Source of the DNA: Pigmentiphaga litoralis | GTDB lineage: Bacteria; Pseudomonadota; Gammaproteobacteria; Burkholderiales; Burkholderiaceae_B | Assembly: GCF_013408655.1 (NCBI RefSeq) | Contig: NZ_JACCBP010000002.1 | Location: 558,001 to 622,000, forward strand | Length of the DNA: 64,000 bases | Reading direction: 5' to 3' | Shown here: positions 1 to 3,032 of the stretch, piece after piece | Position numbering within the stretch: the first letter of the stretch is position 1 | How the letters are laid out: each line of letters starts with the position of its first letter | Position numbers and translations under genes: made by a program | The notes under the pieces: model-generated | Databases searched by the model: none | Told to the model about the DNA's origin: nothing | The model's input: only the letters and a program-made list of their open reading frames with translations

Positions 1-552
1 TTGGAAGTTGGAGGGAACACTCGAGAACTTAAGAGCCGGCATGTTGCGAGAGCTATTTCGCGATCTCGGATGGTGTTGCAAGGGATGGCCGAAATAGGTT
101 CAGCCGCTTGTGACGCACGCATCCCAAAATCGAATCGCCCAGCCGCGCTTCGCCTGGAGGACAGCACACTCAAGCTTTCAGCTCGATTGCCGCGTGCGAT
201 AAAACGCCTTTTCTATCGCTTGACCGAGGGCCTTCCTGACAATGTCCTATGGATGGTAGGCCTATGTACGCCTGGTTCTCCGTATTTGCTTAGAAGGGAA
301 GAGATATTAGCCCTTAATGCAGCAGGACTTACGTCACCGGAAGCGTTAATGCAGGGGTCGGCCGATGCTGATGCTGCTAGGACAACAGCGCTTATTGGGG
401 TGAAAGCCGGCCTCCAGGCCAAGGCAAACTGGCTTCGCGACGCATGCCGAATTTGGAAGGCGAACCAGAGCAGCCCAAATGCAAAAAAACGTGCCAAAAA
501 AATGTCTAAAAGAGCACCTGATAGATTTCTTTTATCTAGCTACTGGAAATGA
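1..552 (+). CDS. C-terminal part of a large protein, possibly helicase-like (truncated by window edge)
   Basis: The reading frame is open from the first base, so only the last ~183 residues of a longer protein are visible. Residues ~75-150 are mostly helical and include a segment (LRREEILALNAAGLTSPEAL) resembling the helix-hairpin-helix or winged-helix tails of DEAD/DEAH or Hel308-like helicases. No helicase motor motif lies inside the window, so the helicase reading is inference. The extreme C-terminus is Lys/Arg-rich. It overlaps the next gene by 74 bp in another frame, which suggests co-translation with the nuclease and reverse transcriptase. Codon use is A/T-richer than in the chromosome beyond 3 kb, as expected of island DNA. 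Confidence 0.55.
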   Translation: MEVGGNTRELKSRHVARAISRSRMVLQGMAEIGSAACDARIPKSNRPAALRLEDSTLKLSARLPRAIKRLFYRLTEGLPDNVLWMVGLCTPGSPYLLRREEILALNAAGLTSPEALMQGSADADAARTTALIGVKAGLQAKANWLRDACRIWKANQSSPNAKKRAKKMSKRAPDRFLLSSYWK

Positions 553-985
553 CTTCGAGCGAGCGTTCGAGGAAGTGTTAGGTTTCTTGAAAATAGAAAA
601 CAAACGGCTGGATGACAACAGTAAGAAGGGAGCGCTCGACTATTTCGTCCAACTGCCCAGTTTTCCGCCCCTGATCCTGGAACTTAAGTCACGCGAAACA
701 GGTAAGTTAGTTGATCCTAACCGAGCCGTTGAAGTGTTAGCCGCCTCAGAGGTTCATGGGTACAAGGACGCTTTTGGTGTGACTCTATGCCAAACGAGTG
801 TCGACCCTAGCGTTCCCAGCGTAATAGCGTCATGTAGCCGTTTAGCCGTGATCGAAGCGGTCGATCTAGGAGAAGCGCTTCTGCGATACTGCGAAGGCAC
901 TCTCTCTGGAGAACAGCTATACCGTTGGCTCGTCACTCCAGGGCAAGCAGTTGCCGCCGATCTTCCCTATGGAGACTATGCATAA
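479..985 (+). CDS. Small PD-(D/E)xK-type nuclease-like protein
   Basis: A 168-residue protein with the spacing of a PD-(D/E)xK nuclease core. Asp54 sits in ALDYF, followed 14 residues later by Glu68 and Lys70 in LILELKSR, with helices rich in Glu around residues 25-40 before it. This arrangement (D...ExK after an N-terminal helix) is typical of restriction-like endonucleases. The rest of the protein has no recognised domain. The ATG at 479 lies inside the upstream gene; an in-frame GTG at 491 is an alternative. It sits between the upstream helicase-like gene and a reverse transcriptase, with only ~100 bp to the latter, so the three are probably one transcription unit. Nuclease activity is inferred from the motif only. 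Confidence 0.65.
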   Translation: MQKNVPKKCLKEHLIDFFYLATGNDFERAFEEVLGFLKIENKRLDDNSKKGALDYFVQLPSFPPLILELKSRETGKLVDPNRAVEVLAASEVHGYKDAFGVTLCQTSVDPSVPSVIASCSRLAVIEAVDLGEALLRYCEGTLSGEQLYRWLVTPGQAVAADLPYGDYA

Positions 986-1085
986 GAGAGCGCCGGGTCT
1001 AAGGTCCTTGCAAGACGTCAACGGAATCGTTTGTTAACCGTTGCCGCAAAGTATTCACGTTAACCAATTCACTGAGGCGGCCAAA

Positions 1086-2570
1086 ATGGCAGGAACAGCA
1101 GATTTTATAAGAGCAGACTTTTCAGGAACACTTTTTCCCATGAAGACCAATCTGATTGTTCTAGAGCATTATGAGAAAGAGTTGGCAGCGTACATATCTA
1201 GCCGGGTCCTTTCAGAGGATCACCCCGCTGATAGTTTTCTGCCACAGCAGACAGTTCACGCCACAAAGCCTCGCGGGCACCTCCGCCGCACTGTCAAATT
1301 GGACCCTGTAGCGGAATACTTCCTCTATGACGTTGTGTACCGAAACAAAGCCCTATTTCGACGACAAGTCAGTAACGAGCGACGGAGTTTTGGTTATCGG
1401 TTCAAGGACGGAGAACCTATCTCAGTCCATACAGCCTACCTTGACTACAAGGCCAGCATTGAAGAGCTCGCAACCTCCTTCAGCCATCGCCTGCAGTTCG
1501 ATATTGCCTGTTACTTCAATTCCCTATATCACCATGACATTGCCCACTGGTTTGCGGGCAATGATGGTGTATCTGAAGCCGACGCTGATGCCGTTGGCAA
1601 GTTTTTTCGAGAAATTAACGCAGGCAGAAGCGTCGACTTCTTACCTCACGGTATCTATCCAGCAAAGATGGTTGGCAATGAATTCTTAAAATTTGTCGAT
1701 CTTTCGGGCATGCTGAAATCAACAGTAATCTCGAGGTTTATGGATGACTTTAATCTCTTCGACAACGACGAGGCTGTCCTTCGCCAAGATTTCTATCGCA
1801 TACAGCAACTGCTAGGACAGTTTGGCTTAAATGTAAACCCCAGCAAGACGCATTTTGACAACAATTCTGGACGAGTTGAAGATACCCTTTCCGCACTTCA
1901 TGACTCGCTGAGTCATATAGTTCAGGGTATTGCGCAACTTGAAGGAGCATCCGGGGTTGATTTTGTGGAGGTAGAAGAAGAAGTTGTGCTAGGCCTCTCG
2001 AATGAGCAGGTCACGTCACTACTTACGCTACTCCGAGACGAATCACTTGAAGAGGCAGACGCTGATCTCATTCTTGGCTTCTTGCGATCACATAGCGACG
2101 ACATCCTCGAACACCTTCCCACTCTGCTTAGACGATTCCCTAATCTGATTAAGCATCTATATTCGCTCTGCGCAACGATCACGGATAAGCCAGCACTTTC
2201 TTCTATTCTGCTGGACTATCTTAAAAGCGAGTCATATTTCGTTGAGTACCAATTGTTCTGGATTGCTTGTCTGGTAGAGGACCACTTGATGGGCGCAGGC
2301 TGCTATGGTGAAGTTCTAGTGAGGCTGTACGAGTTGTCTCGAGATTTCCGCATTGCACAAGCTAAGGTGCTTGAAATACCGGAACAAGGCTATGGCATGA
2401 AGGAACTTCGAAGCGAAATCCTAAAGACTGGTCAATCTGACTGGCTATCGTGGGCTTCGGCGTCAGGAACCCGTACACTAAAAAAGGCCGAACGTAACTA
2501 CACGCTCGACTATTTCTCGAAGTGTTCGCCGCTCAACTTCGTCATTTCTGAAAGCATAAAAAGGGTGTGA
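1086..2570 (+). CDS. Reverse transcriptase of the UG/Abi (defence-associated) type
   Basis: A 494-residue protein with recognisable reverse transcriptase motifs. Motif A is FDIACYF (Asp139), motif B-like LPHG at ~186-189 replaces the common LPQG, motif C is FMDD with Asp220 and Asp221, and NPSKT at ~251-255 marks the start of the thumb. Residues ~290-480 form a Leu- and Glu-rich helical region with no maturase or integrase domain, unlike group II intron RTs. A helical C-terminal extension is typical of Abi and 'unknown group' RTs involved in phage defence. The ATG at 1086 is chosen because GAGG lies 8 nt upstream; an in-frame TTG at 1041 would add 15 residues. The gene follows the nuclease-like gene directly. 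The exact DRT/UG class cannot be assigned by eye. Confidence 0.85.
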   Translation: MAGTADFIRADFSGTLFPMKTNLIVLEHYEKELAAYISSRVLSEDHPADSFLPQQTVHATKPRGHLRRTVKLDPVAEYFLYDVVYRNKALFRRQVSNERRSFGYRFKDGEPISVHTAYLDYKASIEELATSFSHRLQFDIACYFNSLYHHDIAHWFAGNDGVSEADADAVGKFFREINAGRSVDFLPHGIYPAKMVGNEFLKFVDLSGMLKSTVISRFMDDFNLFDNDEAVLRQDFYRIQQLLGQFGLNVNPSKTHFDNNSGRVEDTLSALHDSLSHIVQGIAQLEGASGVDFVEVEEEVVLGLSNEQVTSLLTLLRDESLEEADADLILGFLRSHSDDILEHLPTLLRRFPNLIKHLYSLCATITDKPALSSILLDYLKSESYFVEYQLFWIACLVEDHLMGAGCYGEVLVRLYELSRDFRIAQAKVLEIPEQGYGMKELRSEILKTGQSDWLSWASASGTRTLKKAERNYTLDYFSKCSPLNFVISESIKRV

Positions 2571-2886
2571 CCGAGTAACGCTTCATTTTCCTCATAACCA
2601 CGGATTGCCTACGCACTTTCAAAGCGTCCCTGTGAACGATAGCCGACAACAGAAACGTTTGTGGCAGACACTGCGTGTCCTATTTTCTGCGACGCAAGCA
2701 GCAATTAGCAGATGGCAAATGTCTTCTCATACCACTGCACCAAAATTTCGGTACCGTCGAGGCATAGCGAGCATTTCTTATCACTTCACCTAAAATTCGG
2801 CAATCTACTGATCTAAAGAAACCTTTACTTGTTTCAACCTGCGCACGAATTTGACCCGTCCCTGCAGAAACGCTGCGAATCACCAA
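2571..2886. other. Island-end spacer without a convincing gene
   Basis: This stretch separates the reverse transcriptase from the tRNA-Leu fragment. It is A/T-richer than the chromosome to its right. A short open frame (2605-2793, +) has no clear ribosome binding site and an unconvincing composition. No integrase fragment or insertion sequence is visible. Because several defence RTs use an adjacent non-coding RNA, the segment could hold one, but I see no strong hairpin that would prove it. Confidence 0.4.
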
Positions 2887-2939
2887 TTCAAAATCCCCCG
2901 CCGCGAGGCGTGCCGGTTCGATTCCGGCCCCGGGCACCA
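2887..2939 (+). repeat. tRNA-Leu(CAA) 3' fragment, attachment-site half
   Basis: The sequence reproduces the 3' part of a tRNA-Leu gene: anticodon loop TTCAAAA (anticodon CAA), 3' strand of the anticodon stem (TCCCCC), long variable arm (GCCGCGAGGC), T-arm (GCCGG TTCGATT CCGGC), acceptor strand CCCGGGC, discriminator A and encoded CCA. The bases upstream of the loop (ACCAA) do not pair with the CCCCC strand, and no D-arm or 5' acceptor strand precedes it, so this is a fragment and not a gene. A duplicated tRNA 3' end is what tyrosine-integrase islands leave behind. The intact tRNA should lie beyond the left edge of the window. Confidence 0.85.
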
Positions 2940-2945
2940 GACATG

Positions 2946-2983
2946 AAAAGCCGTTGACTGCGATCAGTCAGCGGCTTTTTTTC
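2946..2983 (+). terminator. Rho-independent terminator after the tRNA-Leu fragment
   Basis: A long stem AAAAGCCGTTGACTG / CAGTCAGCGGCTTTT around a CGAT loop is followed by further T residues. The run of A at the 5' side and T at the 3' side makes it potentially bidirectional. It is probably the original terminator of the chromosomal tRNA-Leu gene, now left on the chromosome side of the island junction. Confidence 0.85.
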
Positions 2984-3032
2984 GTCCTTTTGTTTGGCCC
3001 TGCTGTTTAGTCCATCAGGGAGCCGGTTGCGA

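Follow-up and report, generated by a model that had tools for sequence, protein, structure and literature searches.

DRT5 (UG16) is published as an antiviral family of defense-associated reverse transcriptases (RTs) and is placed in class 3 together with DRT1. In purified form, DRT5S and DRT5L need no supplied template to make DNA from dNTPs and do so in the presence of RNase A; this DNA is freed only after proteinase K, i.e., it is bound to protein (PMC13275509). The synthesis carried out by DRT1, an RT plus nitrilase, is likewise protein-primed and template-free, and its priming serine is reported not to be conserved in other class 3 DRTs (PMC13275509). Template-independent DNA synthesis is also reported for DRT4 and for class 1 UG/Abi RTs, and two reviews from May-June 2026 still class DRT5 as mechanistically unresolved.

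The DRT5 of the window

The window is the whole 64,000-nucleotide stretch that we analyzed (G000:C2:558001-622000). At its left end lie three open frames, all on the + strand: the two listed in Table 1 as genes 1 and 2, and a third at 1041-2570. G+C across window positions 1-3000 was 0.47-0.52, compared to about 0.60-0.70 in the remainder. A sequence-only reading had already noticed this A/T-richer DNA and its overlapping or tightly spaced frames, and took the frames for a candidate module of three genes.

Table 1. Features at the left end of the window (window coordinates; the position in locus L004 is the window position + 15000)
Feature	Position	Strand	Description or basis
Open frame "gene 1"	1..552	+	Piece of decayed helicase gene; frame begins at window -191 (L004:14809)
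Open frame "gene 2"	479..985	+	Same gene as above, read in another frame: C-terminal PD-(D/E)xK (FokI-like) domain
Pseudogene-DRT5 spacer	986..1085	+	No stable fold, and no DNA conservation seen among relatives
Drt5 (UG16), intact, 494 aa	1086..2570	+	PADLOC, NF041750, 20-protein alignment, predicted model
Right island repeat, 52-bp copy of tRNA-Leu 3' end	2888..2939	+	Probable attachment site

The third gene is an intact DRT5. Its product matched PADLOC Drt5 at 1.8e-216 and NCBIfam Drt5 (NF041750) at 652.9 bits against a cut-off of 550, over model positions 1-483 of 484. The TIGR04416 maturase profile gave 22.5 bits only (cut-off 300), and an Rfam scan of L004 to E 1 found tRNA only and no intron or retron RNA. 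By profile, the RT is therefore of the UG/Abi (DRT) kind, as had been proposed, and belongs to neither the retron nor the group II intron RTs; the accompanying suggestion of a new or poorly described variant has to be given up because DRT5 is a named class. ATG 1086 is favored over TTG 1041 as the most likely start codon, since the corresponding position is where close relatives begin. The spacer ahead of DRT5 also holds GTTAACC twice (1033 and 1059, within window 1033-1065), which could be an operator or chance.

The RT motifs recognized earlier, FDIACYF and FMDD, were located in the third frame. D139, D220, and D221, expected from RTs in general to be the catalytic aspartates, were invariant in 20/20 aligned proteins. 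The predicted model (pLDDT 82) consists of an RT half with FMDD, a low-confidence linker, and the helical C-terminal half that had already been noted, and it aligned with DRT6, DRT4, and AbiK structures across residues 1-491. The two-part fold is thus shared with the DRT4 (UG15), DRT6, and AbiK/Abi-P2 polymerases over nearly the whole chain, although identity in the structural alignments was 12-15% and these are different families by profile. Unlike DRT1, the window's DRT5 has no nitrilase domain. Like DRT5/UG16 as described (NF041750), it is matched by the family model along its full length and above the curated threshold, carries FMDD and a helical C-terminal half, and sits on an island. It differs in sequence distance only, at 66% to a copy on a Cupriavidus plasmid, 60-62% to the full-length copies nearest to it in genomes, and about 39-45% to the remaining aligned proteins. 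It is a new copy, otherwise ordinary for DRT5.

A search of 399 genomes of the order at a threshold of 1e-30 found DRT5 in one, the window's own. Similarly, among 150 relatives, only this genome carried a Drt5 match above the cut-off, and 20 others gave weak matches (E no better than 1e-7), the level expected of other RTs. Four plasmid records (Cereibacter not among them) and four IMG/VR loci contained DRT5; none was found in phage records. The DRT5 frame was split in 5 of 24 genome contigs (L031, L037, L048, L049, and L050) through decay or assembly error, the gene was N-terminally short in L029, and the match in L052 spans 65 residues only.

DRT2, DRT3, and DRT9 need a small RNA, and the 317 bases without a recognized gene between DRT5 and the 52-bp repeat might encode one that DRT5 needs here. 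However, the Rfam matches in L004 did not extend beyond tRNA, and folding of the flanks did not improve on that of shuffled sequence (z +1.48 for the upstream flank and -0.32 for the downstream one). When we compared 350 nt upstream (with blastn) and 450 nt downstream of 29 DRT5 genes including the window's (L029, L050, and L052 excluded), the window's flanks matched none of the 28 other loci, and same-strand matches were confined to a roseobacter clade and a pair of viral contigs, plus one 23-nt match (L039-L047). We thus saw no sign of an RNA partner, with the caveat that a fast-evolving RNA could be missed by these comparisons. Purified DRT5 also makes DNA with RNase A present (PMC13275509), and overall we regard dependence on a flanking RNA as very improbable.

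Remains of a helicase-nuclease gene

Genes 1 and 2 both derive from a single gene, now decayed, that encoded a ~960-aa DEAD helicase ending in a FokI-like PD-(D/E)xK domain. In full-length relatives the nuclease domain is the end of the helicase; one of them, a Cereibacter plasmid protein (AXQ96323.1), has its motor at residues 32-200 and 311-399 (its Helicase_C match is just under the cut-off). By contrast, the window's copy is a motorless, frame-shifted pseudogene. Its start codon and first ~46 residues, which match helicase N-termini, survive at L004:14809-14946, beginning 191 bases ahead of the window. For family residues ~47 to ~585, L004 gave no credible counterpart, i.e., about 540-560 residues are missing, and the intact DEAD + Helicase_C motor is absent with them. 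What is left of the tail is split between two frames and contains stops: the frame changes near window 76 and again near 460-500, with helicase sequence in frame 1 from about 76 to about 490. Only the N-terminal ~46 and the C-terminal ~350 residues of the ~960-aa family are therefore recognizable in or just left of the window.

These results divide the earlier claims. Frame 1 does hold helicase tail sequence, as suspected, but it belongs to a broken gene, and extension to the left yielded the N-terminal remnant rather than a full first gene. The nuclease-like core (D54, E68, and K70; D...E-x-K) is present in the second frame, and its predicted fold is FokI-like. What had been counted as three genes is thus DRT5 and the fragments of a single broken helicase-nuclease gene. 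A large internal deletion together with frame changes probably inactivated this separate gene, whose remains lie upstream of DRT5.

The surviving 160-aa FokI-like domain could conceivably be made as a separate protein and act together with DRT5, either as an effector or by trimming DNA. However, the fragment departs from 7 of the 60 columns that are invariant in the other aligned relatives, two of these seven being at its frame-shifted start. In comparison, 11 of 13 relatives depart by 0-2 columns and the other two by 4 and 7. Moreover, a separate nuclease of this kind has no counterpart in 31 other DRT5 loci, and in full-length relatives the domain is simply the helicase end. We therefore consider this separate protein a long shot, and the more specific version, in which the open fragment was kept and is expressed together with DRT5, serving as a trimmed accessory nuclease, a slightly longer one. 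If true, the retained fragment would be a defense gene salvaged from another gene's wreck.

Even less probable is that the frame changes are assembly errors in an intact helicase gene. Two A7 runs do lie near one frame change, yet base-calling errors cannot remove about 540-560 codons between the N-terminal ~46 residues and the tail. The nuclease piece also has a single place in the genome, and that search gave no intact helicase elsewhere in it.

The nuclease piece was likewise confined to the window's own genome among 399 of the order. A distant full-length helicase query found none in 398 genomes, with at most two candidates scored per genome among the matches listed; lacking a positive control, this empty result carries no weight. 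The nuclease was absent from phage records, and a single-sequence query of IMG/VR returned none. We also considered Hachiman (HamB helicase + HamA) and rejected it, as the HamB-matching motor is missing here and HamA was matched by neither upstream open frame (P0004 and P0005). The intact Cereibacter relative matches HamB models through the motor region (best 2.8e-27). The family of ~960-aa DEAD helicases with PD-(D/E)xK (P0025, P0030-P0088; L025:9595-12483), whose motor is related to the Hachiman HamB models, may be an undescribed one-gene defense system. On the Cereibacter plasmid, the helicase-nuclease gene lies near DUF4433 and ADP-ribosylglycohydrolase genes, and no DRT5 is annotated in the 23.7 kb of this plasmid that the analysis covered.

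Neighbors of DRT5 and the tRNA-Leu island

The sequence-only reading had suggested that the three genes may act together and had named conservation of the trio as a check. We searched 31 other DRT5 loci with 52 helicases and 19 nuclease-side proteins, and none carried the helicase (E 1e-3) or the nuclease (E 1e-2). Upstream DNA exceeded 1 kb in 29 of these loci and 3 kb in 23; it fell below 1 kb in L029 and L037. We saw no neighbor common to all DRT5 loci examined, and the immediate upstream neighbors, judged by eye, differed: NYN-like in L030, ATPase-like in L034, methyltransferase-like in L037, peptidase-like in L039, and ribosomal S1-like in L046.

In six of the 31 loci (L027, L028, L040, L042, L043, and L051), the gene directly upstream of DRT5 encodes a HerA-like ATPase, with copies near full length and 77-98% to the L027 copy. 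We rejected it as a general DRT5 partner because these loci form a single roseobacter clade and a match in L045 spans 39 residues only. In this clade, a SIR2 family gene is annotated before the HerA-like gene in L028, where the HerA frame is split, and a SIR2-like gene is seen by eye in L040.

The three-gene system is therefore very unlikely, as an intact DRT5 adjoins a wrecked helicase-nuclease gene. Support for it fails on two outcomes named in advance as counting against it: the neighbors do not recur with the RT in the 31 other loci, and gene 1 is broken. Despite the shared strand and tight spacing, we put the chance of a truly new multi-gene DRT system here close to nil, given that genes 1 and 2 together make up a single broken, motorless gene, that the neighbors of the other 31 DRT5 genes differ and include no helicase-nuclease, and that the RT is an ordinary Drt5.

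The expectation that a defense RT would sit on an island was borne out. DRT5 and the decayed gene belong to a 12.4-kb tRNA-Leu island, which three 52-bp repeats delimit as two units. The first repeat (L004:5455-5506; G000:C2:548455) is the last 52 bases of tRNA-Leu(CAA) at L004:5422-5506. The second (L004:11089-11140; G000:C2:554089) is 50/52 identical, and the third (L004:17888-17939; Table 1) is identical to the copy at L004:5455. The decayed gene and DRT5 are between the second and third, as is an Mrr-type restriction endonuclease gene left of the window (L004:13066-13797; Mrr_cat 5.2e-13). The next gene (L004:13850-14515) encodes a 221-aa protein in which, by eye, two membrane segments are likely, and these two genes are possibly a separate defense pair. 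In a Pfam scan of nine further island ORFs, SRAP scored above the cut-off, Peptidase_M78 just below, and no integrase was recognized.

Among the 11 genomes of the genus, G006 has the repeat at C2:466177 and a second copy 40 kb away at C2:506424, joined to ~50 bases from the start of the right flank, the bulk of which follows 1.8 kb beyond. This arrangement suggests that G006 carries a different insert at the same place. Other genomes have further repeat copies elsewhere. Taken together, we think it highly probable that this tRNA-Leu island holds an intact DRT5, a putative single-gene defense system, and, upstream of it, the remains of a separate, inactivated helicase-nuclease gene.

Expected mechanism and priming candidates

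By analogy with purified DRT5, the window's enzyme would synthesize DNA from dNTPs, with one of its own residues as the primer and no template, and in infected cells this synthesis would be expected to lead to anti-phage protection. It is from the published DRT5S and DRT5L synthesis and the RNase A and proteinase K results (PMC13275509) that we infer protein-primed, template-free synthesis for this copy, and its activity and outcome are likewise expected by analogy.

The excerpts of DRT literature that we searched named no DRT5 priming site. Seven hydroxyl residues, T21, T69, Y81, Y148, S182, S451, and S481, were invariant in the 20-protein alignment, which makes them candidate primers as judged from 20 sequences. 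With this analysis, the three-gene RT system drops out as a false lead, and one more well-conserved DRT5 is added. Should priming by DRT5 occur on a conserved Ser, Thr, or Tyr, these seven residues would be the short list for its priming site.
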